Shown in pieces: positions 6,211 through 25,325 of a stretch of 34,049 nucleotides of DNA (positions are counted from its first letter, which is position 1; each line of letters opens with the position of its first letter). Source of the stretch: Alistipes sp. (GTDB lineage Bacteria; Bacteroidota; Bacteroidia; Bacteroidales; Rikenellaceae); the NCBI GenBank assembly GCA_017483225.1, contig JAFULF010000022.1, forward strand, positions 1-34,049, written 5' to 3'. The position numbers were made by a program, and so were the translations under genes. Below the pieces are notes generated by a model. That model was given only the letters and a program-made list of their open reading frames with translations. It was not told the origin of the DNA and ran no database searches.

Positions 6211-6242
6211 TTTGCTCGTTTGATATATATATGCTACCTTTG
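6211..6242 (+). promoter_or_regulatory. Promoter of the SusC/SusD-protease operon
   Basis: TTTG (6211-6214), 20 bases, then TACCTTTG (6235-6242) match the Bacteroidota consensus. The susC-like ATG begins only 5 bases after the -7 box, so the transcript start should fall at or beside the start codon, implying a leaderless or nearly leaderless mRNA. No obvious operator palindrome is seen. Confidence 0.8.
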
Positions 6243-6247
6243 CGGGT

Positions 6248-9220
6248 ATGAAGAACTTGAAATATTATTGTCTGTTGTCGGGTATGTTGCTCGCCCTGAT
6301 TTTTGGCTCAGCGACAAACCTCTCTGCCCAAAATAGCGGAGGACAAAAAGTTACGGTAAGCGGTATTATCACCTCTGCGGAGGATAGCCAGCCGCTTATT
6401 GGTGTTGCTGTGGTGGTTGCCGAGACACTGCAAGGAGTAACGAGCGGCATTGACGGCTCCTACTCCATTGATGCAGTTGCCGGCCAAACCATCTCTTACA
6501 CCTTCCTCGGGTGTAAGGAGGTGCTCTATACGGTACCTGCGGGTGCAGCGACCGCCAAGTATGACGTTGTGATGCAGAGCGACACGGAGTCTATCGACGA
6601 CGTTGTCGTTATCGCCTATGGTGTCCGCAAGAAGGGCACGGTGGCGGGTTCGGTGTCGAGCGTAAAAATCGAGAAGATTGAGAGCACACCTACGGCGGCC
6701 TTCGACCAAGCGTTGCAGGGTCAGGTTCCGGGCTTGTCGGTTATGTCGAATACGGGAGAGCCAAGTGCCTCTGCCACAATGACTATCCGTGGCACCAACT
6801 CCATCAACTCGGGCACCGCACCGCTCTACATTCTGGATGGCGTGCCTATCTCGGCGAGTGACTTCAACACCATCAACCCTGCCGATATCGAGTCTATCTC
6901 GGTGCTCAAAGATGCCTCCTCGACATCTATCTATGGTGCTCGTGCTGCCAATGGTGTGATTGTAATCACCACAAAACGAGGCCGCAAGGCGGAGCGTCCA
7001 CGCATCGACTATCGTATGCAGCTCGGATTCTCGCAGGTGGCCAACAACGGCAAGTGGGACTTGATGAATACCGCCGAGCGTATCCAGTACGAGAAGGAGA
7101 TAGGAATGACCGAGGGTCAGGACTACAACCTCCTCGCCAAGACCGACGTGAACTGGCTCGATATGGTCTATAACCGTGCGGCACTGTTGCAGAGTTACGA
7201 ACTCTCGGTGTCGGGTGCTGACGACAACACCTCGTACTACGTTTCGGGTGGCTACTACAATCAAGATGGTACGGCTCTCGGCTCCTCGTTCCAGCGTTAC
7301 TCGCTGCGTGCAAACTTGGAGCAGAAGGCGGCTAAGTGGCTGAAACTCGGCACAAACACGATGCTCAACTATCAGGGCATAGAGCAGGCCGACGAGGGTA
7401 GCTACACCCTTGTAACCCCTATCTCGGCATCCCGCTTTATGCTCCCGTATTGGAACCCTTATAAGGCTGATGGCAGCCTCGCCTCCATCGCTGACGGCGG
7501 CTGGAAGGGCAACGGACAGAACCCTATCGAGTGGTTGCAGAACAACCCGGTGACATACAAGAAGTACAAGCTGCTCTCGACCGTCTTTGCGGAGGCGTAT
7601 CCGGTCAAGGGACTGACACTGCGCTCGCAGTTTGGTGCCGACTTCTCGCACACCACGGGCTTTGCGCAGTCGTTCCCAAGTTATGCGCCTAATCAGGGTC
7701 AGGGCTCGGCATCACGCAGCTCTACCGATAGCTACACCCTCACCATCACCAACACGGCGAACTACCGCTTTGACATCAATGGCGACCACAACTTCAACCT
7801 CCTCGTAGGTCACGAGGGCGTGGATACACACTACGAGGCGTTCAGCGTCTTTACGGCCGGTCAGAACAACGACCGCCTGACGGATATCTCGTCAGCAACA
7901 CGTGCCACGGGATGGGACGATACGACCGACTCGGATTACGGTTTCCTCTCCTTCTTTGGACGAGGCGAGTACAACTATGCCAACCGCTACTTCTTCGAGG
8001 TTGCAGCACGTGCCGACGGCTCATCACGCTTCGGCATCTCCCGCCGCTGGGCAGGATTCTGGTCTGTGGGCTTTATGTGGGATATGCGCAACGAGGGCTT
8101 TATGCAGCCTTATGCACACTGGCTGACCAACGCACAGGTGGCTGTATCTACGGGTACGTCGGGTAACTCCTCAATCCCTAACTATGAGCACTTTGCCCTC
8201 GTGGGCGGAGGTCTGGACTATGTCGGCAATGCCGGCGTGGGATTGGCACAGCCGGGCAATGAGAATCTGGGCTGGGAGAAGCCGTGGACAACCAACGTGG
8301 GTCTGCACTTCGGCTTCTGGAACCGCCTCAATGTCGATGTCGAGTACTACTACAAGCTCACCTCCGATATGCTGATGCAGGTGCCTCAGTCATACGCCGA
8401 GACGGGCTTCGGATACTACTGGGACAACGTGGGCGAGATGCTCAACACCGGTTTCGAGGTCAATCTGAACGGAGTGCTCATCCAGAGCAAGGACTTCCTC
8501 TGGACGGTGAATGCCAACGTGTCATATAACCACAACAAAATCACGGAGTTGTACAACGGCGTTCAGGAGTACGAGAACTCCGGCACCAACACCAAACTCG
8601 TGGTAGGGCACTCGCTCGGCGAGTTCTTCATCAACCGCTATGCGGGCGTGAACCCTGCCAATGGTGATGCCCTCTGGTACACGAAGGATGGGGAGCTGAC
8701 CAACAAGTTGCGTGACGAGGATAAGGTGCTTGTCGGCAAGAGCTATATCGCCCCTTGGCAGGGTGGTTTTGGCACCAACCTCTCGTGGAAGGGCCTCTCG
8801 CTCAGCGCACAGTTCAGCTGGGTGGCCGACCGTTGGGTGCTCAACAACGACCGCTACTTCGACGAGAGCAACGGCCGCTTCGCCTCCTACAACCAATCAC
8901 GCCGACTGCTCGACCGCTGGAAGCAGCCGGGCGACATTACCGACATCCCTCGCCACGGCGTATATACGGAGTTTGACAGCCGTCTGTTGGAGGATGCTTC
9001 GTTCCTGCGACTTAAAAACCTGATGCTCAGCTACTCGTTCCCGCAGAAACTGCTGACCAAGAGCCGAGTATTCCAAGGCATACGTATCTATGCGCAGGCG
9101 CAGAATCTCTTCACGGCGACCAAGTTCTCGGGTCTTGACCCCGAGGGTTCGACAAACCTCTACGCTGCGCAGTATCCTATGGCACGTCAATACACCTTTG
9201 GCGTTGATATAACCTTCTAA
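6248..9220 (+). CDS. susC: SusC-like TonB-dependent outer membrane transporter
   Basis: The product is 990 residues, typical SusC length. A signal peptide (residues 1-28, ending LSAQ) is followed by a carboxypeptidase-regulatory-like domain (about 34-112), a TonB-box-like DDVVVIAYG (117-125), a plug with LYILDGVP and IESISVLKDASSTSIYGARA (about 130-245), and a barrel to the C-terminus ending FGVDITF. It would import a ligand captured by the SusD lipoprotein encoded 15 bases downstream, powered by TonB-ExbBD. The substrate cannot be read from the sequence; neighbours suggest protein or glycoprotein material rather than plain polysaccharide. The upstream ATG is chosen because it gives a Lys-bearing signal peptide. 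Confidence 0.95.
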   Translation: MKNLKYYCLLSGMLLALIFGSATNLSAQNSGGQKVTVSGIITSAEDSQPLIGVAVVVAETLQGVTSGIDGSYSIDAVAGQTISYTFLGCKEVLYTVPAGAATAKYDVVMQSDTESIDDVVVIAYGVRKKGTVAGSVSSVKIEKIESTPTAAFDQALQGQVPGLSVMSNTGEPSASATMTIRGTNSINSGTAPLYILDGVPISASDFNTINPADIESISVLKDASSTSIYGARAANGVIVITTKRGRKAERPRIDYRMQLGFSQVANNGKWDLMNTAERIQYEKEIGMTEGQDYNLLAKTDVNWLDMVYNRAALLQSYELSVSGADDNTSYYVSGGYYNQDGTALGSSFQRYSLRANLEQKAAKWLKLGTNTMLNYQGIEQADEGSYTLVTPISASRFMLPYWNPYKADGSLASIADGGWKGNGQNPIEWLQNNPVTYKKYKLLSTVFAEAYPVKGLTLRSQFGADFSHTTGFAQSFPSYAPNQGQGSASRSSTDSYTLTITNTANYRFDINGDHNFNLLVGHEGVDTHYEAFSVFTAGQNNDRLTDISSATRATGWDDTTDSDYGFLSFFGRGEYNYANRYFFEVAARADGSSRFGISRRWAGFWSVGFMWDMRNEGFMQPYAHWLTNAQVAVSTGTSGNSSIPNYEHFALVGGGLDYVGNAGVGLAQPGNENLGWEKPWTTNVGLHFGFWNRLNVDVEYYYKLTSDMLMQVPQSYAETGFGYYWDNVGEMLNTGFEVNLNGVLIQSKDFLWTVNANVSYNHNKITELYNGVQEYENSGTNTKLVVGHSLGEFFINRYAGVNPANGDALWYTKDGELTNKLRDEDKVLVGKSYIAPWQGGFGTNLSWKGLSLSAQFSWVADRWVLNNDRYFDESNGRFASYNQSRRLLDRWKQPGDITDIPRHGVYTEFDSRLLEDASFLRLKNLMLSYSFPQKLLTKSRVFQGIRIYAQAQNLFTATKFSGLDPEGSTNLYAAQYPMARQYTFGVDITF

Positions 9221-9235
9221 ATCGGAGAAAAGACT

Positions 9236-10753
9236 ATGTTACGAAAGATAAAAATATACATCACTATTGCGGCGACGATGCTCCTGACGGTGTCGTGTCT
9301 GGACAAGGAGCCGCAGTCGGCAATACGCCTCGACAAGGCGATGCAGAGTTTCGACGATGCGGAGCAGACGGTAACCGGCATCTACGCCCTGCTCAAAAGC
9401 GGTGCCCTGTATAGCGGCTACCTCACGCTGCTGCCCGACATTCAGGCCGACTTGGTATATGCTGTGGATGGCTACTCCAACACCTACGGAAGTTTTTGGT
9501 TGTGGCAGATTCGCTCGACGACATCGGAGGTGGGCTCGGTATATGGTGCACTCTACAACGTCATCGCCAACTGTAACTTCTACCTCGACCGCATCGGTGG
9601 CGTGATGGATAAGGAGACCAACGACGAGAAGCTCGAAATCCTCGACACCTACACCGGAGAGGTATATGCAATCCGTGCTCTGGCATACTCGGAGCTCATC
9701 AAGTGCTTCTGCGAGGCATACGACCCCGACAACGCCTCGACACAGTTGGGTGTTGTGTTGCGTTCGAGCTATGAGCGTCCGGAGCCTATCGTGCGTGCCT
9801 CGTTGGAGGAGTCGTACCAATTTGTGTTGAACGACCTGGCCAAGGCGGAGGCTCTCCTTGTCAAGGAGGACGATATGTACAGCAGCGTCTATGCTACGCA
9901 GGCTATGGCGTATGCACTCCACGCACGTGTGGCGCTCTATATGCAGGATTGGGAGGCGGCGATAGACTACTCGACACGCCTGATTGAGAACAAGGAGTTC
10001 TCGCTCTCGTCGGCAAACACGCTCTACACCGATACGATGACCTACTTCGACTATATGTGGAACTACGACTTGGCGACGGAGATTATCTACCGTGTGGGCT
10101 TCACCAACACCTCGTATGGCGGTGCGCTCGGCTCGGTATTCCTCAACTTCACGACCGACTACACGTACTTCTATCCTGACTACGTGCCGGCGCAGTGGGT
10201 CTTGAACCTCTACTCCAACGCCGATATGCGCTACAACAGCTACTTCTACACGGCGGCCACAGGCCATTCGCACGGCTTGCAGTGGCCTCTGCTGATGAAA
10301 TACTATGGCAACCAAGAGTTTATTTCGAGCAGCCTGCTCTACCACGTCTCGATGCCGAAGCCGTTCCGTCTGGCGGAGCAGTATCTGATTCGTGCCGAGG
10401 CGTACTGCCGCCAGAACAAGTTCTCGGAGGGCTCAAAAGATATCTCGACGTTGCGTCAGGCACGATTCTCCTCGGGCGGCTCGCTCAACCTCACGGCGGA
10501 CAACTTCTTGCAGCAGATTTCCGACGAGCGTGTACGAGAGCTCTATATGGAGGGTTTCCGCTTGCAGGACTTGAAGCGTTGGGGCAAGGAGTACAACGAG
10601 GGCAACGGCTTCGAGCGCACTCCGCAGACAAGCTCCCTCACCGAGGGCAGCTCCCTCAAAGTCGATTGGGATAACCCTCTCTTCGTATGGCCGATACCTC
10701 GCCACGAGATTGAGGCTCCGGGGGCAAACATAAAGCCTAACAAGAGCAACTAA
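9236..10753 (+). CDS. susD: SusD/RagB-like nutrient-binding lipoprotein
   Basis: The product is 505 residues with a lipoprotein signal peptide ending LLTVSC (lipid-carrying Cys21). The SusD N-terminal region (about 35-200) includes the segment RALAYSELIKCFCEAY typical of its TPR helices. The C-terminal SusD region holds PFRLAEQYLIRAEAY and the family signature ERVRELYMEGFRLQDLKRWG. SusD proteins form the lid over the SusC barrel and capture the ligand at the cell surface. It is only 15 bases after susC. The family is secure; the ligand is unknown. Confidence 0.94.
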   Translation: MLRKIKIYITIAATMLLTVSCLDKEPQSAIRLDKAMQSFDDAEQTVTGIYALLKSGALYSGYLTLLPDIQADLVYAVDGYSNTYGSFWLWQIRSTTSEVGSVYGALYNVIANCNFYLDRIGGVMDKETNDEKLEILDTYTGEVYAIRALAYSELIKCFCEAYDPDNASTQLGVVLRSSYERPEPIVRASLEESYQFVLNDLAKAEALLVKEDDMYSSVYATQAMAYALHARVALYMQDWEAAIDYSTRLIENKEFSLSSANTLYTDTMTYFDYMWNYDLATEIIYRVGFTNTSYGGALGSVFLNFTTDYTYFYPDYVPAQWVLNLYSNADMRYNSYFYTAATGHSHGLQWPLLMKYYGNQEFISSSLLYHVSMPKPFRLAEQYLIRAEAYCRQNKFSEGSKDISTLRQARFSSGGSLNLTADNFLQQISDERVRELYMEGFRLQDLKRWGKEYNEGNGFERTPQTSSLTEGSSLKVDWDNPLFVWPIPRHEIEAPGANIKPNKSN

Positions 10754-10757
10754 GCAA

Positions 10758-10765
10758 GGGAGGAG
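10758..10765 (+). promoter_or_regulatory. Shine-Dalgarno-like site before the third operon gene
   Basis: GGGAGGAG lies 5 bases before the ATG at 10771, in the 17-base gap after susD. It is one of two strong purine-rich sites in the window, with the one before rplJ. Other genes of this operon lack a comparable site. Confidence 0.55.
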
Positions 10766-10770
10766 TAAAG

Positions 10771-11709
10771 ATGAAAATGATGAATAAGATGAAGATAGCA
10801 ACCATTACCCGAAGCCTGCTCGCCATAGCACTGCTTGCGGGTACAACCTCGTGTAGCGAGCAATACACCACCTACTCGGATGCCGAATATGTGATGTTTG
10901 CCGATACGCTCTCGACAAATATGGTACTTGCCGACGACGAGGCGTTCAAGGTAAAGGTCGCCTCTACCGTGACACGTGACTACGACCGCACCTTCGGCGT
11001 GGAGATTATCGACCGAGGCAGCAACGCCATCGAGGGCGTGCACTATCGCCTGAAATCCAACACCATAACCATCCCCGCCGGCAAGTTGGCAACCGATGTG
11101 GAGGTGTATGGCCGTTACGAGAACTTCGAGGATACCGACTCGCTCGGCTTCTCGCTTCAACTCGTTATGCCGGACAAACTCAAATGGCCTCTGGGCGAGA
11201 ACAGCAACCGCACCAAGGTCGTGATGTACAAGAGTTGTCCGTTTGACATAAACAACTTCACGGGGTATTGCGTACTCTCGTCAATGTTGCTCTACAACTA
11301 TCCGGGATTCTACAATCAGTCGTACCAGAAGTTGGTCAAGACCCGACTCCACCCGACCGAGCCTAACACCATCATCTTGGAGAGCTGCTTCTACACGGGC
11401 TACGACGTGACGATGAAGTTCCATCCCGAGGAGCCTGCAAAGCCGACCCTGACGATGGATAAAGACCAAGTATTCAGCGACGAGGAGTCGGTATTCGGAC
11501 AGATTCTGGGCGACAACCGCATACTCGGTACCCACAGCACCTACTACGACAACTACTTCAACTCGTGCCAACGATTTGCCGTGCTATGGACACACGTCTA
11601 TGTCGAGGATATAGGCACAAGCATCGGCACCGTGGGTCACTTCTACAACATCCTCGAATGGGTAAGCGACGAGGAGGCCGAGCGACTCAAACGTGAAGAG
11701 GGCTGGTAA
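10771..11709 (+). CDS. SusCD-associated lipoprotein with Calx-beta-like N-terminal region
   Basis: The product is 312 residues with a lipoprotein signal ending LAGTTSC (Cys28). Residues about 45-125 contain AIEGVHYRL and TITIPAGKLATDVEV, the pattern seen in DUF4843/Calx-beta-like domains of proteins that often follow SusD genes. The remainder (about 140-312) is rich in Tyr and short strands with no family I recognise; it could be a lipocalin-like or immunoglobulin-like fold. A surface-exposed accessory role, perhaps ligand binding alongside SusD, follows from the context only. It ends 71 bases before the next gene. Confidence 0.75.
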   Translation: MKMMNKMKIATITRSLLAIALLAGTTSCSEQYTTYSDAEYVMFADTLSTNMVLADDEAFKVKVASTVTRDYDRTFGVEIIDRGSNAIEGVHYRLKSNTITIPAGKLATDVEVYGRYENFEDTDSLGFSLQLVMPDKLKWPLGENSNRTKVVMYKSCPFDINNFTGYCVLSSMLLYNYPGFYNQSYQKLVKTRLHPTEPNTIILESCFYTGYDVTMKFHPEEPAKPTLTMDKDQVFSDEESVFGQILGDNRILGTHSTYYDNYFNSCQRFAVLWTHVYVEDIGTSIGTVGHFYNILEWVSDEEAERLKREEGW

Positions 11710-11780
11710 ACAAGAGAGTGGCGGCAGCGTAAAACGGAGCGGCAAACAACTGAGATTGAATGAATTAAAAACAAGATAAT

Positions 11781-13826
11781 ATGAAGCAGATTTTTAACAT
11801 ATTTGGCGTAATGCTCCTCTGCGTGGCGATGCTCTTCGCCTCCTGCGAGAACTCCTCGACAGACGATAACGGCGGAGGCAATGGGGGCGAGATTGAGGAG
11901 GTTACTCCGCAGTGGCCCGAGGCGATTGAGGCCGACGTGCTTGCCGGTGAAACCTATACGCTCACCATCGAGCCTAACGTGGATTGGGTATTGTCCATTC
12001 CGGAGAGTATGGCGGCATACTTTCAGATTCAGGATGGTGAGAATCAGGTATATACACTGCGTGGCAAGAAGGGCGAGCATAAGGTAACCATCAACATCTC
12101 GAACACCGAGGATTTCGACCTTGACCGCACCTGCGAGGTGTCGCTGACGATGAAGGGCGAGACACGCATCATCGCAACGCTCACCAAGAGCAAGAAGGAG
12201 CGTGAGCTGAAAATCTACGCTGCACAGGTCGATGAGGGGGCTTTCGTCTATGAGTCCGACAGCGAGTCGGCTCTCACCTTCGCATACGAGAGCGAGGATA
12301 TGACCGCCAATGCCTCGGCGACGATGTTTTGGCCGGAGGGTATGGGCTCATACATGGCCCGTGTGAAGGTGGAGTCCAACTTCGAGTGGATGGTCGATGG
12401 CGTGCCGACGTGGATTACGCCTATAAAGAATGGCGAGGCGGGCACCACCGAGTTGTGGTTGCAGGGCGCAGCGGCATACTACCCTATGGAGGCCTCGACG
12501 GCGACCCTCTCGTTTGTCGCTGCGGCAAATTCGGAGGTTGTGATGGCAACAATGGAGGTGTCGATTCCGAGTGCCAAGGATATATTTATGGCCGAGAGTT
12601 TCAGCGCAGAGTCCATATTCAACTATGTGGGCGACTTCTACAACGCCTCTATCGACAGCTATATCGAGGGTGGCAAGGGCCGTGGCAGCATCACCGCCAT
12701 TGATGGTGCGCAGGTTTGTGCCGTAGCTTTCTCCGAGCAGGTGGGTGTCACCGTGGCAGAGATGAACCCTGCGTGGGTAACCATCTCCATCGATGAGTGG
12801 GATGCCACCGATGCCTCGCTCATCCAGCGTCGCTACATCGAGTATGGCGTTACGACCAACAACGATGCCGCTCGTCAGGCATATCTGTTTGTCATTCCTG
12901 CCGACGTGGAGGCCGACCTCAACTCTATATGCGAGCGTGAGGGCGACTCCTACACGGGTAATATCACCGAGGCGTATAAGCCTTATATGGTGACCACAAT
13001 CTCGCAGAGCGAGACCCCGGGCAATATCGAGATGTTGCAGGCGGCAATGTTTGCCGACACGGGAGGTCAGTTCGAGCGTCTGCCTTCGGGCTCCTACGTA
13101 TCGACACTCTTCCCTGACGTGTTCGAGGCATACAGCATCCTCTTCATCAACCTCGCACAGAACGAGAGCGACTCGGCTCTGCTCAAAATAGCACGTGAGG
13201 TGACCTCCGTAGCATACTACTACTTCGCCGACGAGAGCGGCAAACTTACCGCTATGACGGGCGAGGAGTCGTGGTTGAACCTGACCTACTCGGCAGAGGG
13301 CTCTCGTATCACAATGAGCCCCGACAAGAGCACCGCAACATCATACGGCCCGACCAAGTGTCAGGAGGGTTACATCACACTGGCGGATGAGCAGGGTGTA
13401 TTTGCTGCAATACGCTGCATATACAACCCTAATGCGAAGGTTGAGTTGCCGGCGTTGAAGTTCTACTCGGAGACGGGAGCCAAGGGCAACGGCTCGACAC
13501 TCGTGCGCCTTACCGAGGGTGAGCTGTTTACGACCTACAACCAGAAGTATCCGGGTACAAACATCTACCACCTGACCTTCACCTCCGCACGACCAAACCT
13601 CTCGATGTTGACAGGTCTGTACAACACAACGACCGAGATGCCTTACAACTGCATCTTCGACAACGAGGATGACCGCAGTTGGCTGGGATTTGAGGCCGCC
13701 ACGGAGTATCAGATGATTACCATGAAGGCCGACGTGGGCAATGGAAAGACGGGAGCGTTGGTATTCCTCAACAGCGAGGGCAAATACAACTACGTGCTCG
13801 TATGCACGCTCAACATTGCACAATAG
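11781..13826 (+). CDS. Large lipoprotein with BACON-like repeats (DUF5003-like)
   Basis: The product is 681 residues with a lipoprotein signal ending LFASC (Cys22) and a Gly-rich spacer (about 30-37) that would hold it away from the membrane. Two or more beta-sandwich segments resemble BACON domains: one with VDWVLSIPES (about 65-130) and one with FEWMVDGVPTWI (about 200-270). The C-terminal half is not recognised beyond a resemblance to DUF5003-type proteins, which I hold with low certainty. Such proteins are usually surface-exposed glycan or mucin binders in SusCD loci. No catalytic motif is visible. Confidence 0.7.
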   Translation: MKQIFNIFGVMLLCVAMLFASCENSSTDDNGGGNGGEIEEVTPQWPEAIEADVLAGETYTLTIEPNVDWVLSIPESMAAYFQIQDGENQVYTLRGKKGEHKVTINISNTEDFDLDRTCEVSLTMKGETRIIATLTKSKKERELKIYAAQVDEGAFVYESDSESALTFAYESEDMTANASATMFWPEGMGSYMARVKVESNFEWMVDGVPTWITPIKNGEAGTTELWLQGAAAYYPMEASTATLSFVAAANSEVVMATMEVSIPSAKDIFMAESFSAESIFNYVGDFYNASIDSYIEGGKGRGSITAIDGAQVCAVAFSEQVGVTVAEMNPAWVTISIDEWDATDASLIQRRYIEYGVTTNNDAARQAYLFVIPADVEADLNSICEREGDSYTGNITEAYKPYMVTTISQSETPGNIEMLQAAMFADTGGQFERLPSGSYVSTLFPDVFEAYSILFINLAQNESDSALLKIAREVTSVAYYYFADESGKLTAMTGEESWLNLTYSAEGSRITMSPDKSTATSYGPTKCQEGYITLADEQGVFAAIRCIYNPNAKVELPALKFYSETGAKGNGSTLVRLTEGELFTTYNQKYPGTNIYHLTFTSARPNLSMLTGLYNTTTEMPYNCIFDNEDDRSWLGFEAATEYQMITMKADVGNGKTGALVFLNSEGKYNYVLVCTLNIAQ

Positions 13827-13888
13827 AGGGGCAGCACAGGCTGACAGTGAGAAGAATAAGAAGTAAAAAAAATAAAAACAGAGTTTCG

Positions 13889-16582
13889 ATGATGAAACAG
13901 ATGAGATTTACCGTATATATGGTTGCGTTTCTGGCAGCACTCGGCCTGGTGAGCGGTTGCTCGCCGGAGGGTGTGGCCGATTATCGTGAGCCTGACTACG
14001 GATATGTACAATTCAAACTCTACAAGAAGGCCTCCTACGAGGCTCCCGTGGCAGAGTTATCCTCAACACGTGCCATCAAGACGACGTTGGACTACTTGTC
14101 CGAGGCGTGCAAGGTGAAGGTTACGCTCAAATATGAGGATACCACCCTTGCGCAGACGCTCAACCTCTCGGCGGCAGACGATGACGCTGCGGAGTTCGGG
14201 TTGCGTAGCGACAAGCTCAAACTGCTTGTGGGCAACTACAACGTGGTGGTCTTCTCGTTGTACGACAACAACGACCAGCACATCTACACGGGCAGCCCTG
14301 AGGGCGAGAGTAGCTTCACGGTCATCTCCGGCGGCCTCTGCTCGCACGACCTGACCGCCGATGTAACCCCTCGTGGCAAGGTGCGCTTCACGCTCAAAAA
14401 GGATATGTCGGGGCTGACACGTGCCGTAGAGCGAGAGTACACATTCGACGAGATAAAGTTCGTGGATATCACGGTAGGTCGTGTGCTCGCCTCGGGAAGC
14501 GTCACCAACCCGACCTCATTCCAGAAGCTGCCTGCGAAGTTCTCGATGCACTTCGACGAAGAGGACGAGGTGAGCGACAAGGAGGGCTACCGCACCTCTT
14601 CGAGCCTCTGCGACACGTTGCTGTCACTCCCTTCGGGCAAGTACCGCATCGTATCGTACAGCACCTTCGACGAGAAGAAGTTCCTGCTCGAAAACAACGC
14701 CAACCCGCCACTCTCGGAGTTCGAGGTGGAGGATAACGTGACGACCGAGGCTGATGCCCGCATCCGCCTCTACGAGAGTGACGAGTATATCAAGGACTAC
14801 TACGCCCTGCGTGAGATATGGAGGGCGTTAGATGGCGAAAACTGGTACTACGACGGCGAGAACTACACCCGTGGCATCAACTGGGAGTTCAACAAAGACC
14901 CCGACCTGTGGGGTGACCAGCCGGGAGTGTCACTGCACTCCAACGGCCGTGTGGCACGCATAGATTTGAGCAACTTCTCATTCCGAGGCGATATGCCTGC
15001 TGCCATCGGACAGCTCACGGAGCTGGTGGAGCTCTACCTCGGCACACACAACGACACCAACTCGTTTGGCTACGACTCCTCGATACCTATGGACCAGAGC
15101 CTCGCCGAGCGAAGCCGCAACCGTATGGAGAATAATCGCAAGTACCTCGCCTCCATACACCCTGCTACGCAGATGTCGGAGCCTTGCGCTCGTGCCTTGG
15201 CAGAGCAGGGCATCCGTATTCCGGAGACGGCACTCTACGACACCCTCTCAGAGAAGGAGATTATCGACCCTCGCACGGGCGAGCAGCGTCAAATATCGCT
15301 GATGGATACCAACCACGGAACGATAAACAACGGCTTGAAGTCGCTGCCGAAGGAGATTGGGGCCTTGAAGAAGTTGGAGTATCTCTATATCGCAAACAGC
15401 GAGATTGAGAGCCTGCCGGAGGAGTTGGCACAACTGGAATCCTGCACCGACTTGGAGATTTATAACTGTCCGAAACTCACCACCTTCCCTACGGCGCTGG
15501 GACTGATGCCTGAGCTCATATCGCTCAACATCTCCAACAATGCGCAGTGGAGCGCCGAGGAGTGCTACAAGGGTTTGGATGCGTTGGCTACGGGCCCTGC
15601 GAAGGAGAAGATACAGATTCTCTACGCCCGACAGAACAACCTCAAAGAGTTGCCAGCATCGTTCTCGAATATGAAGAAGCTCGGTCTGCTCGACCTTGCA
15701 TACAACCAGATTGAGAAGATACATCCGCTGGGCAAGGATATCAGCATCGTTCAGCTGTACCTCGACCACAACCGTCTGACCAGCATCCCGACCGTCAAGG
15801 ATGAGGATGGCAACGACTACTTCTGCGGCTATAACGACATAGAGACCTTCTCTGTCAAGTATAACAAGCTGACCAAGTTCCCTAACATCTTCTCGGCAAA
15901 GAGTCCATACTCGATTACCTCTATCGACTTCTCCGGAAACGATATTGACGGCTTCGAGGGCGAGGAGAATGGTACGTTCAAGGGAGTGAAGGTGCAGACG
16001 CTGACACTCGCCTGCAACCCTAAACTGACGAAGTATCCGAAGTGTCTGGCCGACACCAACTCGCTCGTCTCCTACATCATCCTGCGTGCTTGCAGCCTCG
16101 ACGAGGTTCCGAAGGGGTCGTTCACATACCGCAACTCGGTGGACCTGATGTCGCTCGACCTCTCGTACAACAACCTCACGAAGTTGCCACAGGAGATGCA
16201 CGCCGGCAACCTTCCATACCTCTATGGTGTGGAGCTCTCGTTCAACTCGTTCAGCGAGTTCCCTTACGAGCCGCTTGACAGCCCGGGCCTCACGGTATTC
16301 GCCGTGCGCAGCCAGCGCAACAACAAGGGCGAGCGATGCCTGCGTGAGTGGCCTACAAGTATCGGTATGCACAAGGGCCTGCGAGGTCTGTACCTCGGCT
16401 CAAACGATATAGGTCGTGTTGATGATACCATCTCAACACTGATTTACTACCTCGATATCAGCGACAATCCGAACATCATCTTCGATGCGAAGGATATCTG
16501 CTACGCTTGGCGTGTGGGTGCCTACATCCTTGTCTATGACAAGACACAGGATATACGCAACTGTGACTATATGAAGGAATAA
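13889..16582 (+). CDS. DUF4458-like lipoprotein with leucine-rich repeats
   Basis: The product is 897 residues from the ATG at 13889, which gives a lipoprotein signal ending LVSGC (Cys24); an earlier in-frame ATG at 13802 overlaps the previous gene and lacks a signal peptide. The segment GYVQFKLYKKAS (about 37-48) and the Ig-like N-terminal part resemble DUF4458. A capping region near residue 305 (YYALREIWRALDGENWY) precedes many leucine-rich repeats of the LxxLPxxIxxLxxLxxLxIxxN type, running to about residue 885. LRRs bind proteins or peptides, so this is a likely surface receptor or scaffold for the operon's substrate. Confidence 0.85.
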   Translation: MMKQMRFTVYMVAFLAALGLVSGCSPEGVADYREPDYGYVQFKLYKKASYEAPVAELSSTRAIKTTLDYLSEACKVKVTLKYEDTTLAQTLNLSAADDDAAEFGLRSDKLKLLVGNYNVVVFSLYDNNDQHIYTGSPEGESSFTVISGGLCSHDLTADVTPRGKVRFTLKKDMSGLTRAVEREYTFDEIKFVDITVGRVLASGSVTNPTSFQKLPAKFSMHFDEEDEVSDKEGYRTSSSLCDTLLSLPSGKYRIVSYSTFDEKKFLLENNANPPLSEFEVEDNVTTEADARIRLYESDEYIKDYYALREIWRALDGENWYYDGENYTRGINWEFNKDPDLWGDQPGVSLHSNGRVARIDLSNFSFRGDMPAAIGQLTELVELYLGTHNDTNSFGYDSSIPMDQSLAERSRNRMENNRKYLASIHPATQMSEPCARALAEQGIRIPETALYDTLSEKEIIDPRTGEQRQISLMDTNHGTINNGLKSLPKEIGALKKLEYLYIANSEIESLPEELAQLESCTDLEIYNCPKLTTFPTALGLMPELISLNISNNAQWSAEECYKGLDALATGPAKEKIQILYARQNNLKELPASFSNMKKLGLLDLAYNQIEKIHPLGKDISIVQLYLDHNRLTSIPTVKDEDGNDYFCGYNDIETFSVKYNKLTKFPNIFSAKSPYSITSIDFSGNDIDGFEGEENGTFKGVKVQTLTLACNPKLTKYPKCLADTNSLVSYIILRACSLDEVPKGSFTYRNSVDLMSLDLSYNNLTKLPQEMHAGNLPYLYGVELSFNSFSEFPYEPLDSPGLTVFAVRSQRNNKGERCLREWPTSIGMHKGLRGLYLGSNDIGRVDDTISTLIYYLDISDNPNIIFDAKDICYAWRVGAYILVYDKTQDIRNCDYMKE

Positions 16583-16596
16583 AAAGAGTGCGAGAT

Positions 16597-18243
16597 ATGA
16601 AACTGAGAAACTATATACTTATGTCGGTGATGGTCGTAGCGGCAATAGCCTGCACCCCCGACAATACAGAGGACAATGCCTTCTCGACGGAGCCTATAAG
16701 CCTGAACTTCGGCCCGGAGGGTGGTGTGGAGACACATCGCATAACCTCCAACGCCCGTTGGATAGCATCTACCGACAACGCTTGGATTGTAGTGTCGCCG
16801 GCGAATGGCCGTGGCACGACGGAGTGTCAGTTTATCATCGACTCGACGCTGGTGGCCGACACTCGCAACGGTGTTGTCCGCATCCAGAACCTTGACACCT
16901 GGGAGGAGAAGGAGATTCGCATCAGTCAGGCGGGCTTCCCGTACACTATCGAGGTGGAGAAGCGTGAGATAGAGATTGAGAACTACAAGAACTACGGCGA
17001 GAGATACTTCGACGTGAAGATTCGCTCCAACGTGGAGTTCAAGACCAAGATTTCGGATGGTGCTACGTGGTTGAGCAACGAGGATTACAAACTCAACCTC
17101 AACCGAGGTGTGCGCCCTCGTGAGGTCTCCCTGCGCTTCAAGTGGGATATCAACACCTCGGACAAGGAGCGTCTTGCGGAGGTTATCTTCGAGCCAAAGA
17201 CGGCCGTGGAACTCTCCCGTCACGACAACCTCAACATCCGTCAGGATGCTGCCGAGCCAATCATCCCCGACACTCGTGCGGGCGACTCCGTGGCGATGCT
17301 CTGCATCTCCCGCTCGTTGCAGATGCTGGCGCAGATTGATGCCTCGAAGAGAATGGAGGAGTGGAGCGGCGTAACCCTCTGGGTAGAGGGTATGGAGGGC
17401 TGCACTCCGGAGAAGGTAGGCCGTGTGAAGTCGGCAGAGTTTACCTTTATGAACACCAAGGAGAAGCTGCCATACGAGTTCCGCTACCTCACGGCGGCCG
17501 ACGAACTCTACATCTTCGGTAATACCAACACCTTCCAGCGCAGTTTGGAGCTGGGTGACGACATCTGCGAGCTCACGCAGCTGCGCCGCCTAACCGTAGG
17601 TGCCTACGGATTGGTGTCGTTGCCAAAGAGTCTGGCAAAGCTCAAGAACTTGGAGTACCTCAACATCTGCTCCAACAACTTCCAGACCGTGCCGGATGTG
17701 CTCACGAAGGAGAACTTCCCTAACCTGCGCTCTCTGGTGATGAATGCCAACCAGCGCAGTGTAATCTACGATTTGAGCAACACGACACGTACCGACCTCG
17801 GCGGCTTCATCGACGAGCCGGAGTTCCCTGTGGACCTCATCAAGTGGAATCTCGACACGCTGGTACTCTCGGTGAACTACCTCCACGGCAAGTTGCCGGA
17901 TTTCCTCGACGATGACGAGGTACCTTGCTACGAGCAGGCGGACATTGATGCCGTAGATACCCTGCCGCAATACTTGGCAGACAAGCGAATCAAGAAGGTG
18001 ATGACCAAGACCAAGCGTTTTGCCATCAACCACAACCGTCTGACGGGCAACCTGCCGGATTGGTTGCTCTACCACCCTGCGCTGGACTTGTGGGTTCCAT
18101 ACAGCCTCGTATTCTCGCAGGAGGGTCGTGGCAGGGATAACAAGCAGGCGGGATTCGACAACGAGCCACCGAGCCTCTCCTACTACTACAAGTTATACAC
18201 AACGAAGCAACAGCCTACCGGAGAAGAGGAGGGTGCCGAATAA
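16597..18243 (+). CDS. BACON-domain lipoprotein with leucine-rich repeats
   Basis: The product is 548 residues from the ATG at 16597; a GTG three codons earlier is possible. The lipoprotein signal ends VAAIAC (Cys19). A clear BACON domain (residues about 32-112: ISLNFGPEGG, ARWIASTDNAWIVVSP, IRISQAG) is followed by a second beta-sandwich and then a short leucine-rich block (about 300-480: LRRLTVGAYGLVSLPKSL, LEYLNICSNNFQTVP). BACON domains are linked to carbohydrate or mucin binding in Bacteroidota, and LRRs to protein binding. It follows the DUF4458-like LRR gene by 14 bases and may be a partner or divergent relative. Confidence 0.85.
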   Translation: MKLRNYILMSVMVVAAIACTPDNTEDNAFSTEPISLNFGPEGGVETHRITSNARWIASTDNAWIVVSPANGRGTTECQFIIDSTLVADTRNGVVRIQNLDTWEEKEIRISQAGFPYTIEVEKREIEIENYKNYGERYFDVKIRSNVEFKTKISDGATWLSNEDYKLNLNRGVRPREVSLRFKWDINTSDKERLAEVIFEPKTAVELSRHDNLNIRQDAAEPIIPDTRAGDSVAMLCISRSLQMLAQIDASKRMEEWSGVTLWVEGMEGCTPEKVGRVKSAEFTFMNTKEKLPYEFRYLTAADELYIFGNTNTFQRSLELGDDICELTQLRRLTVGAYGLVSLPKSLAKLKNLEYLNICSNNFQTVPDVLTKENFPNLRSLVMNANQRSVIYDLSNTTRTDLGGFIDEPEFPVDLIKWNLDTLVLSVNYLHGKLPDFLDDDEVPCYEQADIDAVDTLPQYLADKRIKKVMTKTKRFAINHNRLTGNLPDWLLYHPALDLWVPYSLVFSQEGRGRDNKQAGFDNEPPSLSYYYKLYTTKQQPTGEEEGAE

Positions 18244-18252
18244 TAAACGACT

Positions 18253-20298
18253 ATGGATATGAGAAGATTTGTATATATACTGCTGACCATCTCTCTGCTG
18301 GCACTGAGCGGCTGTCACGAGGGGGTGACCGACTCGGTTATCAGCCCGAATGACACAAGTGCCGAGAAGCCATACTTCGATGGTACTATTCTGGTAAAGT
18401 TCAGCCCCGAAGTGGCTGACATAATCGCCGAGAGTGCCGCTGTAAGCAGCCGCACACTCACCCGTAGCGGGGTCCCTTCGGTGGACGAGGTGCTCGCCGC
18501 CATTGACGGCTTCGCCTTGGAGCGTGTATTCCCGATAGACTCGGAGTGCGAGGAGCGCACACAGAAGAGTGGCCTGCACCTCTGGTATGCCATCCACTTC
18601 AACGCCTCGCAGCACACCGTTGCGGAGGCTGCCGAGAGATTCTCGGCGCTGGGACAGGTGCAGAAGGTGGATGTAAACCACACCATCAAGCGTGCCCACA
18701 ACGGCAAGGCTACCCCTCTGTCGAAGGAGCGTATGGAGGCCTTGGCCTCGCTCTCGACACGCAGCGACGCAACGACAGACCCTCTGCTGGGTGCACAGTG
18801 GCACCTGATTAACAATGGCGACCTCTTCTGCAAGGATGGCGTGATAAAGTCCGTGAAGGGTGCCGACCTGCAATGCGAGAAGGCGTGGGAGAAGAGTATG
18901 GGCGACGAGTCCATCATCGTAGCGGTGCTCGACGAGGGTGTCTGCATAGAGCACCCCGACCTGAAAAACAACATCTGGGTCAATGAGGATGAGCAGGAGC
19001 GCTCGACAGAGGATAACGACAACAACGGATATGCGGGCGACCGCCACGGATATAACTTCGTGAAGCAGACCGGCACAATCACCTGGAACGACTACCTCGA
19101 CTCGGGCCACGGCTCGCACGTTGCCGGCATCATCGCCGCCGAGTGCAACAACGGCATCGGCGTAGCCTCCGTAGCAGGAGGTAACGGCTCGAAGGGGGGC
19201 GTGAAGATTATGGTCTGCCAGCTCTTCTCCGGAAATACCGCCACCGACATACTCTCCACGGTGCGTGCCATAAAGTATGCGGCGGATAACGGAGCGGTAG
19301 TGCTCCAATGCAGCTGGGGCTACGTCTCCGGCACGGCCAACCAATACGACTGGGGAGAGCCGGGATTCGCCTCGCAGAAGGAGTGGGAGACAGGCTCGCC
19401 ACTCGAAAAGGAGGCTCTCGACTACTTCACCCACAACGCCGGCTCCCCTAACGGGGTCGTCGAGGGAGGTATTGCAGTATATGCCAGCGGCAACGAGTAC
19501 GCACCAAGCGCAGGCTACCCCGGAGCTGCTCCTGAGTATATCTCCGTCGCTGCCACAGCCGCCGACTTTACTCCTGCCGTATATACCAACTATGGCACAG
19601 GCGTAACCATCTCGGCACCGGGCGGCGACCAAGACTACTACTTCGAGTATGTTGACGATACACACCGATACGGCGAGGTAGGATGCATCCTCTCCACACT
19701 CCCATACCATATCAGCGACAGCGGCTACGGATTTATGGAGGGAACATCTATGGCTACGCCGTGCGTCTCGGGCGTGGTGGCTCTCGGATTCTCGTATGCA
19801 GCGCAGATGCGCCGCCACTTCACCGCCAAGGAGTTCCGTGACCTGCTCTACAAGACCGCTACGCCTATCGACGAGTATATGGTTGGCAAGAAGACGTACA
19901 GCCGCTATGTGGCGGATGTGGGCCCTATACAGCCGATGACGATGAACCTCAACGAGTACAAGGGTAAGATGGGCTATGGTCAGGCAAACGCTGCGGCGTT
20001 GCTTGCTGCCATAGATAACGGTGCCGGCGCACCTATGCTCTTCCCTAACATATACATCGCCGAGGGCGGTGTGTCGGCAGTTGCGCCATCGCTCTACTTT
20101 GTGGGCGGGGACTCGCTCACCTATACGGTAACGATAGCCGACACCTCGATTGCCACCTGCACCGAGAACGAGGGCAAGTTGCTGTTCAGCGGCGTGAAGA
20201 GCGGCGTAACCACAGCAACCATAACCGTCAACAACGGCACCACACAGGAGTTTAACATCACCGTCCGCAAGGCGGCAAGTGGCAACGGCTGGCTATAA
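18253..20298 (+). CDS. Subtilisin-family (S8) serine protease lipoprotein
   Basis: The product is 681 residues. The lipoprotein signal ends LALSGC (Cys21). A propeptide-like region (about 42-150, ILVKFSPEV) precedes the S8 domain with an intact triad: D227 in AVLDEGV, H286 in SGHGSHVAG and S499 in GTSMATP, plus the oxyanion Asn in ASGN (414). A Big2-like Ig domain (about 600-675, SLTYTVTIADTSIATC) closes the protein. Lipidation within a SusCD operon suggests a surface protease that cuts the ligand before import. DEGV replaces the commoner D[TS]G, and a Cys follows the active-site block (ATPCVSG). The substrate is not deducible. Confidence 0.92.
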   Translation: MDMRRFVYILLTISLLALSGCHEGVTDSVISPNDTSAEKPYFDGTILVKFSPEVADIIAESAAVSSRTLTRSGVPSVDEVLAAIDGFALERVFPIDSECEERTQKSGLHLWYAIHFNASQHTVAEAAERFSALGQVQKVDVNHTIKRAHNGKATPLSKERMEALASLSTRSDATTDPLLGAQWHLINNGDLFCKDGVIKSVKGADLQCEKAWEKSMGDESIIVAVLDEGVCIEHPDLKNNIWVNEDEQERSTEDNDNNGYAGDRHGYNFVKQTGTITWNDYLDSGHGSHVAGIIAAECNNGIGVASVAGGNGSKGGVKIMVCQLFSGNTATDILSTVRAIKYAADNGAVVLQCSWGYVSGTANQYDWGEPGFASQKEWETGSPLEKEALDYFTHNAGSPNGVVEGGIAVYASGNEYAPSAGYPGAAPEYISVAATAADFTPAVYTNYGTGVTISAPGGDQDYYFEYVDDTHRYGEVGCILSTLPYHISDSGYGFMEGTSMATPCVSGVVALGFSYAAQMRRHFTAKEFRDLLYKTATPIDEYMVGKKTYSRYVADVGPIQPMTMNLNEYKGKMGYGQANAAALLAAIDNGAGAPMLFPNIYIAEGGVSAVAPSLYFVGGDSLTYTVTIADTSIATCTENEGKLLFSGVKSGVTTATITVNNGTTQEFNITVRKAASGNGWL

Positions 20299-20299
20299 G

Positions 20300-21103
20300 A
20301 TGAGTGGCGGAGGCAGTGGTTTTCGATGGGTGGTCGCATTCTTATCGCTTGCGGCCCTACCCGACAGAGCCCCTGCCCAGATAAAGATAATACCACAGCA
20401 GAGTGTTCGGGAAGCGGCCGAGAGCACGACAATCGGAGAGAGCGATATGCTCCTGCCCGATGGTGATACGCTCGACTTCGGCACGCTCGACGAACTCGGA
20501 GGTGCGTGGCAGGGCGAGATAGAGTGGCGCAACAGAGGCGACAAGCCGATAGTTGTCACCCGCATAAACACCACCTGCGGATGTTTGCAGGTCGTAGCGG
20601 CGGAGAGTGTTGTCCAAGGGGGAGCGACGAGCCGATTTCGTCTTACCTACCACCCGAAGGGACACCCGGGCAGTGTAAGGCAGAGGGCTTTCGTATATAC
20701 GAACCTCTCGGAGAAGAGCCCTACGGCAGTACTCCACATTACGGGAGAGGTCACCGCCTCGGCCGACCGCAGTGGCGACTACTCCTACCGACGAGGTGCG
20801 TTACTGCTACGGCAGGAGCGTGTTACGTTTGCCTATGGGGTGACGGAGGTGGCACGTATAGCCTGTATGAATGGCGGCACAACGCCGTTGGAGATAGGCG
20901 CAGAGCCCCACTTCACGCCGCAAGGCATAAGCCTGCACACGGAGCCACGACGCTTGGAAGCGGGAGCAGAGGGGGACCTGATTATAGAGTATGACCCTCG
21001 CACGATGCCTCGTGAGGGCGTTGTAAAGGTGATGCTTGAAGGGTTGCAACTGCCACCCAGAGAGCGTACAATAGAGATTTTGATTGACAAAAACGAGAAA
21101 TAA
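20300..21103 (+). CDS. DUF1573-domain secreted protein
   Basis: The product is 267 residues from the ATG at 20300, one base after the protease stop codon, so translation is probably coupled. A GTG at 20279 would overlap the protease gene and is not preferred. A short signal peptide (WVVAFLSLAAL, then APAQ) precedes a DUF1573 domain with GEIEWRNRGDKPIVVTRI and the family CGC motif (C93, C95 in TTCGC). A second beta-sandwich (about 160-265) repeats the same Ig-like layout. DUF1573 proteins are common Bacteroidota envelope proteins of unknown biochemical role. Here the gene is locked into the protease operon. Confidence 0.85.
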   Translation: MSGGGSGFRWVVAFLSLAALPDRAPAQIKIIPQQSVREAAESTTIGESDMLLPDGDTLDFGTLDELGGAWQGEIEWRNRGDKPIVVTRINTTCGCLQVVAAESVVQGGATSRFRLTYHPKGHPGSVRQRAFVYTNLSEKSPTAVLHITGEVTASADRSGDYSYRRGALLLRQERVTFAYGVTEVARIACMNGGTTPLEIGAEPHFTPQGISLHTEPRRLEAGAEGDLIIEYDPRTMPREGVVKVMLEGLQLPPRERTIEILIDKNEK

Positions 21104-21118
21104 AAACGAGATTCAGAT

Positions 21119-21598
21119 ATGAAAAACAGATTCAGAGTTATCCTTATGGCGATTGTCGCCGTGATGTTGTGCGGATGCGAGGAGAATACCCCCGAGCCTT
21201 CTACCTTCTTGGAGGTTACGCCTAATAATATCGCAGGCACTTGGGCCTTGGAGAGCTTCGACGGAGTGGCACTCCACGAGGGGAACTACGTATATATAGA
21301 GTTTGTGCGCAAAGACCGCACCTATAAGATGTTCCAGAATACGGATAGTGCCTACACACGAGTTCTCACGGGCAAATACAACATCTACACCGACAGCGAG
21401 GCGGGCTCCATCATCCGTGGCAACTACGACTACGGGCAGGGCGACTGGTCGGCACGCTACATCGTCACGGAACTTACCGAGGAGCGGATGTGCTGGGCAC
21501 CGCTCAATGACCCGTCGAGTATCTGTGTCTATATCCGCAGCGACATTCCGGAGGATATCTACTCGGCATACGTGCCCGACGTGGAAGAGGAGGAGTAG
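21119..21598 (+). CDS. Small lipocalin-like lipoprotein
   Basis: The product is 159 residues with a lipoprotein signal ending MLCGC (Cys20). The segment IAGTWALESFDG (38-49) carries the GxW-type start of the lipocalin/calycin barrel, followed by alternating short strands, and the C-terminus is acidic (DVEEEE). Lipocalin-like lipoproteins are common beside SusCD genes, and their ligands are mostly unknown. It is the last gene of the operon, 15 bases after the DUF1573 gene and 16 bases before a terminator stem. Confidence 0.75.
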   Translation: MKNRFRVILMAIVAVMLCGCEENTPEPSTFLEVTPNNIAGTWALESFDGVALHEGNYVYIEFVRKDRTYKMFQNTDSAYTRVLTGKYNIYTDSEAGSIIRGNYDYGQGDWSARYIVTELTEERMCWAPLNDPSSICVYIRSDIPEDIYSAYVPDVEEEE

Positions 21599-21614: not shown

Positions 21615-21659
21615 AGAGAGCGTATCCAACAAGGTTTTGGATACGCTCTCTCTTTTTTT
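21615..21659 (+). terminator. Terminator of the SusC/SusD-protease operon
   Basis: AGAGAGCGTATCC (21615-21627) pairs perfectly over 13 bp with GGATACGCTCTCT (21639-21651) around an 11-base loop, followed by seven T from 21653. It lies 16 bases after the last stop codon and marks the operon end. The next gene is convergent. Confidence 0.92.
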
Positions 21660-23699: not shown

Positions 23700-25277
23700 C
23701 TACTGCTGCGGGTAGGTTATATCAAGTCTAAACAGCGGATTCTCGATAGGCGTATGCTCGTTGCGGATAACCTCCCACATTCGGGCGATAATCTGCGGAT
23801 GCTGCGCCGCAAGGTTGTGCTCCTCACGAGGGTCCTCGGTAATCTTGTAGAGCTGCATATCGTTATTTCCCGCCGCAACATTCTCCACAAGGCCCTTCCA
23901 CTCGCCCATTCTCACGCAAAGCCAGCCATTGCCGCCCTTGAATACCGGAAACTCCCAATAGAGGAACGGGTGGCTCTTCTGCTCCGCCGTGCGGCCTTGC
24001 AGCGTAGGCAGGAAGGAGATGCCGTCGCTCTGCGGCAGCGCATCCGACTCAACACCTGCGATATGTGCCAGCGTAGGCATCACGTCGGGGAAGTAGCCCA
24101 CGAAGTCGCTCACGACAGGGGTCAGTCGCTCGCCCCACGCCACGATGAACGGCATACGGATACCGCCCTCGTGCAGCGAACGCTTGGTCCACCCTTTGTC
24201 GCTACGAAATGGCGCAGCGCAATCGAACCACGAGGTATTGGTGTAGGCGTTGTGCGTAGGGCCGTTATCGCTGGTTACCATTATGATGGTATTATCGTAC
24301 AGGCCCCTCTTTTTGAGGTGCTTGACGAGTTCGCCAATCTGGTAGTCGAGGTACGAAATCATCGCCGCAAAGGTCGCCTTCGGATAGCGGGTCGGGAAGT
24401 AACCTTTACCCTTATATACCGGCTCCTCATCGCCGAACTTCTTGACGTAGTAGTCCACCCACTCGTCAGGCGCCGTGAGGGCACTATGCGGGATGGTGGT
24501 CGTCCACATCAGGAAGAATGGGTCACGGCGGTTGTTGTCGATAAACTCCTCAATCTTATCGTATATGGCATCCGGGCTGTACGTATCGCCACGGAACTTG
24601 TCGTAACTCTTTCTGTCATAAGGGTCTGCACCATCATCCAATCTGTCACCCAAGTCCATTCGAGGGTTGCTCGTATATTCACGCAGGCGCTCGTTATAGA
24701 GGTATGGCGGGTAGTAGCACTGCGCCATACGCTGACAGAGGTAGCCGTAGAAGTAGTCGAAGCCCATATCCATAGGCGTACTCTGTGATGCAGGGCCTCC
24801 CAGACCCCACTTGCCAATTATCGCTGTACGGTAGCCCGCACCACGCATCACGCTGCCGAGGGTTGCCGTGCCGGGAGCCAGCGGTGCCTGACCCTCCAAC
24901 TCCGGATTCTCCCGCATAGCGTTGATACTCCACACGTTACCACGTCCCACCATCTCGTCATTCGAGCGTATCTGTGCGTGGCCCGAGTGGAGGCCCGTCA
25001 TCAGGCAGCAGCGGGATGGTGCCGAGACCGGTGCTCCGGCATACATATCCGTAAATCGCACGCCCCGCTCCGCCAGTGCGTCGATATTCGGCGTCTCAAT
25101 CTTGGTCTGTCCATAGCAGCCAAAGTCGCCATAGCCGGCATCGTCGAGCAAGATAAAAATCACGTTAGGTCGCTTCTCGCCCTTGTCGGCAGCATTAGCG
25201 GCCTGCGCCTCCTCGCCGGAGGCAGCCACGGCGGCACACAACAACGTCGCCGTAGAGATTATCCTCTTATTGTCCAT
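23700..25277 (-). CDS. Secreted sulfatase (S1 family, serine-type)
   Basis: The product is 525 residues from the ATG at 25275-25277, which gives a signal peptide cleaved near AQAAN; a GTG eight codons earlier is rejected. The metal-site start NVIFILLDDAGYGD (38-51) and the formylglycine site SAPSRCCLMTG (85-95) are intact. Residue 85 is Ser, so activation needs the radical-SAM maturase (anSME), not the cysteine-type enzyme. GKWGLG and VTSDNGPTHN are further family motifs. It would remove sulfate from a glycan or small molecule in the periplasm or at the surface. It stands alone with no glycan-degrading neighbours, so the substrate is unknown. Confidence 0.92.
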   Translation of the reverse strand: MDNKRIISTATLLCAAVAASGEEAQAANAADKGEKRPNVIFILLDDAGYGDFGCYGQTKIETPNIDALAERGVRFTDMYAGAPVSAPSRCCLMTGLHSGHAQIRSNDEMVGRGNVWSINAMRENPELEGQAPLAPGTATLGSVMRGAGYRTAIIGKWGLGGPASQSTPMDMGFDYFYGYLCQRMAQCYYPPYLYNERLREYTSNPRMDLGDRLDDGADPYDRKSYDKFRGDTYSPDAIYDKIEEFIDNNRRDPFFLMWTTTIPHSALTAPDEWVDYYVKKFGDEEPVYKGKGYFPTRYPKATFAAMISYLDYQIGELVKHLKKRGLYDNTIIMVTSDNGPTHNAYTNTSWFDCAAPFRSDKGWTKRSLHEGGIRMPFIVAWGERLTPVVSDFVGYFPDVMPTLAHIAGVESDALPQSDGISFLPTLQGRTAEQKSHPFLYWEFPVFKGGNGWLCVRMGEWKGLVENVAAGNNDMQLYKITEDPREEHNLAAQHPQIIARMWEVIRNEHTPIENPLFRLDITYPQQ

Positions 25278-25325
25278 CGGTATAGTAGGTTTTATTATCA
25301 CAAAAATAGCGATTTTATAGAAAAA

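Follow-up and report, generated by a model that had tools for sequence, protein, structure and literature searches.

A conserved nine-gene SusC/SusD cassette in Alistipes with predicted surface receptors and an S8 protease: a probable RagAB-like peptide importer

The window considered here is a stretch of 34,049 nucleotides of Alistipes sp. DNA (contig C13; the whole assembly comes to 1.86 Mb at 90% completeness), in which nine genes at 6248–21598 on the plus strand probably encode a peptide importer of the RagAB kind, equipped with receptors and a surface protease of its own. In this reading, which is built from sequence, all nine genes would be transcribed as a single unit. The lipoproteins with leucine-rich repeats (LRR; g5 and g6), with immunoglobulin (Ig)- or BACON-like domains (g4) and with a DUF4984 domain (g3) would surround the RagAB-like SusC/SusD pair (SusCD) at the cell surface as a physical complex and bind a protein ligand, which the lipid-anchored S8 protease g7 would then cut. 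The peptides would enter via SusC beneath the SusD lid, powered by TonB. SusCD systems are by near-default read as glycan importers, and a conserved cassette that carries a protease and LRR receptors and no carbohydrate-active enzyme (CAZyme) would offer a test case for protein feeding by gut Bacteroidales. A preliminary description of the same DNA had proposed such a cassette, built around the protease, for the uptake of a protein or glycoprotein such as mucin. Its observation is confirmed and its interpretation partly supported; uptake of protein or peptides is the most probable function, while mucin as the substrate is unsupported here.

The transporter pair gives the cassette its likeness to RagAB. 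The first gene, g1 (6248–9220), encodes a SusC/RagA-type TonB-linked outer membrane transporter of 990 amino acids (aa), which matches TIGR04056 with 785 bits (cut-off 368) and has no STN signalling domain among its listed domains. Among solved chains, RagA (6sli) comes first with 583 bits, followed by the SusC 8aa4 with 375 bits, and the match to BT2264 (130 bits) is far weaker. RagA thus outranks the other solved SusCs, as would be expected of a RagAB-type importer. Three of the six other SusC places in the genome were compared, and the SusCs there all score 8aa4 above RagA. Located 15 bases after g1, g2 (9236–10753) encodes the SusD/RagB-type lipoprotein lid (505 aa; PF07980, 72 bits against a cut-off of 23, and PF14322), which bears a lipobox and has RagB as its best solved chain (77 bits).

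The nine same-direction open reading frames (ORFs) fill the whole span, and the intergenic gaps in gene order are 15, 17, 71, 62, 5, 9, 1 and 15 bases when signal-peptide-compatible starts are used (g5 at 13889, g8 at 20300), which reproduces the gaps of 1–71 bases described before. Upstream, the single promoter reported earlier at 6211–6242 is a strict match to the Bacteroides-type pattern TTTG-N20-TAnnTTTG, which occurs only three times on the plus strand and once on the minus strand of the window, the operon promoter included; two of the other three matches lie directly upstream of tRNA genes. A generic sigma-70 scan of the window missed the operon promoter. Only 5 bases separate the -7 box from the SusC ATG (window 6235–6250), and this spacing suggests that the transcript is leaderless or nearly so. 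Among relatives, the distance to the likely SusC ATG is about 6 bases in loci L052 and L054 (the L054 match being loose) and 24–32 bases in L040, L046 and L055, and no such -7 box was detected upstream of SusC in L041, L042 and L047. The one strong terminator also stands: a hairpin scan found an intrinsic terminator at 21615–21651 on the plus strand, with a stem of 15 pairs followed by seven T. This stem is by far the longest among the 20 hairpin sites of the window, where shuffled sequences lead one to expect 14.3 ± 3.0 sites, and the five plus-strand sites within the operon have stems of just 5–6 pairs. A lipobox cysteine was found in SusD and, as claimed before, in six further proteins (g3, g4, g5, g6, g7 and g9), and in neither SusC nor g8. 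Searches of the nine proteins with Pfam and NCBIfam returned no CAZyme, carbohydrate-binding module (CBM) or sugar-kinase domain, which bears out the earlier statement; the carbohydrate-active enzyme encoded with SusCD that marks a polysaccharide utilization locus (PUL) is therefore absent among them.

Four lipoprotein genes follow the transporter pair. In the surface-binding-protein slot, g3 (10771–11709) encodes a DUF4984 lipoprotein (PF16372, E 8.8e-42) whose DUF4843 match falls below the Pfam cut-off. Its structure model (pLDDT 84) finds Bacteroides DUF1735-type and related nutrient-binding proteins as top Foldseek matches with a TM-score of only 0.25–0.34, a likeness to the surface nutrient-binding proteins of PULs that is weak at most. 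The next gene, g4 (11781–13826), encodes a 681 aa lipoprotein modelled as tandem Ig-like domains (pLDDT 78), for which fold search gave only generic Ig rods. Among six proteins of the g4 slot, those of L042 (31.7) and L045 (34.0) pass the Pfam BACON cut-off, that of L044 (23.0) stays below it, that of L046 is a DUF5003 protein, and those of the window and L040 match no Pfam family, BACON included. The length of g4 ranges from 648 to 983 aa across the named loci, and it diverges rapidly, as a surface exposed to ligands or phages would. The product of g5 (13889–16582) combines DUF4458, LRR_10 and LRR domains with strong LRR matches, and its solved full-length relative is 4ecn (542 bits), which we take to be BT_0210. 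LRR proteins commonly serve as receptors. The lipoprotein g6 (16588–18243, with ATG 16597 as the likelier start) joins a BACON domain that barely passes the cut-off (25.3 vs 25 bits) to LRRs for which each Pfam model stays below its cut-off, yet with E as low as 5.6e-5. Of the two LRR and two BACON-like proteins described before, g5 is thus a clear LRR protein and g6 one below the Pfam cut-offs, and g6 just qualifies as a BACON protein while the g4 of the window does not. The earlier use of BACON as a sign of mucin or glycan binding is weak: in the available text on an M60 mucin peptidase, the BACON domain bound none of the sugars tried and is held more likely to act as a linker (PMC11992087).

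The protease itself is well preserved. The gene g7 (18253–20298) encodes a lipoprotein subtilase (PF00082, E 2.4e-39; PF16361, E 8.5e-34) with an S8_N propeptide at residues 44–189, between the lipid anchor and the catalytic domain, and an S8 domain at 220–537. The triad D227/H286/S499, reported earlier as intact, is invariant together with N414 across 11 aligned S8 rows, window included, and the triad and oxyanion Asn are kept in 39/39 S8 proteins of the loci examined, of which 30 belong to cassettes and 9 do not. Two smaller genes complete the operon: g8 (20300–21103), a DUF1573 protein (PF07610, E 2.4e-17) with a signal-peptide-like start and no lipobox, and g9 (21119–21598), a lipocalin-like lipoprotein (PF13648, 25.2 bits against a cut-off of 22.4). 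The extreme C-terminus of g7 reads GWL (window 20287–20295). Among 29 complete cassette S8 C-termini, 17 end in GWL, 10 in GWM, one in GWI and one in NWM (the L014 protein, cut before its end, is outside this count). GWL as a cassette-specific docking tag was ruled out, as 9/9 non-cassette S8_N proteins also end in GWL; judged by these sequences, the tail is a family-wide trait of S8_N proteins. S8_N proteases as general SusCD partners were likewise not borne out by an order-wide scan and the paralog loci. Of 148 genomes of the order, 28 contain PF16361 (in 22 it exceeds the cut-off), and 40/46 matches lie in open frames of at least 794 aa, vs 680–710 aa in the cassette form. SusCD adjoins the S8 gene in 2/9 non-cassette paralog loci (L057 and L062), sought via similarity to the window SusC and Pfam only. 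The L062 locus is a second operon of the same genome (contig C14, 1064–10906) with the order SusC, SusD, an 868 aa lipoprotein and an S8_N/S8 lipoprotein, its SusC belongs to a different SusC clade, and L057 is similar. That this genome has another SusCD operon closed by an S8 lipoprotein counts in favour of the importer reading.

A check of gene order in other genomes bears out the expected conservation of the cassette, which recurs in named contigs and in its own family, in families f9 and f60 and in a second clade of its own genus. The contigs bear the labels Alistipes, Tidjanibacter, Rikenellaceae, Cryptobacteroides or just Bacteroidales. A scan of named genomes gave 11 loci, and the gene order is the same in 10/11 as far as the contigs extend (L011 and L016 stop short of SusC, and L014 ends inside the S8 gene). 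The eleventh, L019, runs from SusD to lipocalin in the normal order; at its positions 1–2330, SusD lacks the first 222 residues and is adjoined by a SusC start on the opposite strand, which points either to inverted DNA at SusC/SusD or to a misassembly. The LRR protein occurs in 127/250 genomes of the own family, spanning 3/22 genera. Among the matches listed, the LRR gene lies 1.6–3.0 kb upstream of S8 on the same strand in 124/126 genomes with a strong S8 match, G481 and G631 being the exceptions; because kinship of the genomes swells these counts, they stand for linkage and not for independent events. Together with the SusC tree described below, this linkage agrees with the predicted co-occurrence of the S8, LRR and BACON genes with this SusCD clade. 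Across the order the cassette is uncommon (7/393 genomes, own included, in five families); it was found in 34/301 genomes and 8/30 genera of f60 and in 1/4 genomes of f3. Taking the best tblastn piece per gene over 9–11 named loci, the median identity is 78% for SusC and 55–58% for SusD, DUF4984, LRR and S8, and the faster genes follow with 49% (g6), 42% (g9), 35% (g8) and, lowest, 30% (g4).

The cassette exists in two forms. In f60, where 20 loci from 19 genomes were sampled, 12/20 loci bear the S8, DUF1573 and lipocalin genes (in L081 and L082, where antisense ORFs overlie DUF1573 or lipocalin, tblastn finds both). In the other 8/20 (L075–L080, L085 and L086), a second protein of the DUF4458-LRR type, identified by tblastn only, replaces the S8-DUF1573-lipocalin module and is followed by a protein of 359–388 aa or 657–953 aa. 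The model of a type IX secretion system (T9SS) tail is over the cut-off in 3/6 of the 657–953 aa proteins, which show no further known domain; T9SS-tail proteins close the S8-less cassettes of L076 (457–3255) and L079 (9778–12516). The S8-less form was also seen in three loci from f79 and f3, and throughout f3, f60 and f79 the S8-less cassettes retain the order SusC-SusD-DUF4984-g4-LRR-BACON/LRR. An alternative protease was sought in the swapped-in proteins, and a peptidase domain was found in 0/14 with Pfam and in 0/4 with NCBIfam; a protease that these models miss may still be among them. Both forms occur in one genome, G903 (L074 and L075). In an unrooted tree of 32 SusCs, from which L079 was excluded as its SusC lies past the contig end, a single branch with support 100/100 and present in 200/200 bootstrap trees splits 22 S8-bearing from 10 S8-less cassettes (L052 and L009, L053 and L013, and L054 and L010 are duplicate contigs). 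The SusC clade thus matches the presence of the S8 module exactly, which implies that transporter and 3' module diverged together, apparently through joint evolution. In a smaller tree with distant SusCs as outgroup, S8-less cassettes nest within the S8 group, on very long outgroup branches. The composition of the cassette and its two-module split appear to be new, as literature searches found neither described.

From these two forms a wider proposal can be drawn, plausible but more tentative than the importer itself, of a Bacteroidales "peptide utilisome" whose core would stay constant while its 3' module can be swapped; the forms would differ in ligand handling and g4 would set specificity. 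The core would consist of the RagA-like SusCD, the surface binder, the Ig rod and two LRR receptors, and the 3' module of protease, DUF1573 protein and lipocalin in one clade; in the other clade, a further LRR receptor would take their place. The S8 form would cut and import protein and the S8-less form would capture pre-cut peptides, and the two cassette forms would then process protein ligands differently.

Several results weigh against the reading as a peptide importer with its own protease. The sister cassettes of f3, f60 and f79 keep the core without a recognisable protease, so the protease is dispensable to the six-gene core and the earlier phrase "built around" it does not hold. The SusC of an S8-less sister cassette is equally RagA-like (599 vs 410 bits), and therefore RagA likeness is independent of the protease; nor is RagA the closest match for the SusC of the other S8 operon in this genome. 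In G121, whose cassette lacks S8, two S8_N matches lie on different contigs, and in view of this the protease may act in trans or have no tie to the system. S46 dipeptidyl peptidases act downstream of RagAB in P. gingivalis, and such an enzyme was dropped as backing for peptide use because no match was found in the own genome (an assembly 90% complete). In the parts of the paper available, a Bacteroides thetaiotaomicron (B. theta) mutant of BT_0212 retained EspB cleavage (PMC6282197), which may be mere redundancy.

Glycan or glycoprotein uptake, with remote CAZymes and an S8 protease cutting the polypeptide chain in the manner of the M60 peptidase of BT4240-50, is an unlikely alternative to peptide import. 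That locus unites a surface peptidase, SusCD and a surface glycan-binding protein according to its accessible description (PMC11992087), and a sulfatase gene lies 2.1 kb downstream of the present operon (23700–25301, minus strand). Against this reading stand the lack of CAZyme, CBM and sugar-kinase domains in the operon and a SusC nearest to RagA. When seven flanking proteins were sought near the cassette in 23 relative loci, the sole match was a sulfatase in L009, that is, in just 1/23 loci, among which three pairs are the same contig and several stop near the cassette.

The cassette could also serve cofactor piracy, in which the LRR and BACON proteins seize a carrier protein and S8 releases its metal, haem or vitamin for import by SusCD. 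For iron and B12, Bacteroides do combine TonB transporters with lipoproteins at the surface, as excerpts of two papers describe (PMC13142918, PMC10404256). Such a role is improbable: in the portion of a B. theta data set that could be consulted, iron limitation did not induce BT0207-08 (-12.7 to -2.5 fold, p 0.084–0.57) or BT0211-13 (-5.9 to -2.6 fold, p 0.152–0.241) (PMC10434189). Quite doubtful, too, is the view of S8 as a maturation or defence protease of a surface complex, or of the cassette as an adhesion or host-interaction system, with nutrient import secondary. The S8_N propeptide sits between anchor and catalytic domain, so that maturation would alter S8 attachment, and LRR proteins are common receptors. 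The SusCD pair with its TonB-type plug implies import, however, and S8 is unnecessary for making the core proteins because the S8-less form keeps all six.

The neighbours of the operon are chiefly housekeeping genes (tRNAs, EF-Tu, pyridoxal phosphate enzymes and a penicillin-binding protein). Adjoining the gene of the penicillin-binding protein, a 998 aa ORF (29036–32032, minus strand) has no Pfam match at E 0.001.

Among the known systems close to this one are the B. theta genes BT_0206-BT_0213. The consulted part of a published table lists BT0207 as RagB/SusD, BT0208 as DUF4984, BT0211 as BACON, BT0212 as S8 and BT0213 as DUF1573 (PMC10434189); since two gene slots are free between BT0208 and BT0211, for g4 and LRR, this is the same cassette by annotated order, not by sequence comparison. 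The table shows no difference, and we infer that BT_0206 is the SusC. A literature search, with supplementary files and most subscription papers beyond its reach, turned up that table, the EspB study and two unrelated papers, and no text on the function of BT_0206-0214; nor does any BT_02xx tag occur in the main text of an article about serine proteases in B. theta vesicles. A peptidase inside a SusCD locus is already known from BT4240-50, which acts on mucin O-glycopeptides and likewise combines a surface lipoprotein peptidase, SusCD and a surface binding protein (PMC11992087, as far as available). It differs in having M60 instead of S8 and in its CBM32s and glycoside hydrolases, where the present cassette has LRRs and DUF4984; Pfam and NCBIfam found no M60, CBM32 or glycoside hydrolase domain in this operon. 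BT2261-64 and the glycan utilisomes also equip SusCD with extra surface lipoproteins. BT2261-64 holds a peptide in the reported excerpt (PMC7782687) and differs in that BT2264 reaches only the 130 bits given above, whereas the enzyme of the glycan utilisomes is, in the descriptions at hand, a glycoside hydrolase. Peptide import by SusCD is accordingly known already, from the available text on BT2261-64 and RagAB (PMC7782687, PMC11817032). RagA and RagB of Porphyromonas gingivalis are the top solved chains for this SusC and SusD; there a ragA-ragB pair is described as importing gingipain-cleaved peptides (PMC11817032, in part), whereas here putative receptors and a protease stand in the operon. 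The same text raises as a question the possible teamwork of RagAB with surface protein-binding molecules and peptidases, and the partners asked about are co-encoded in this cassette.

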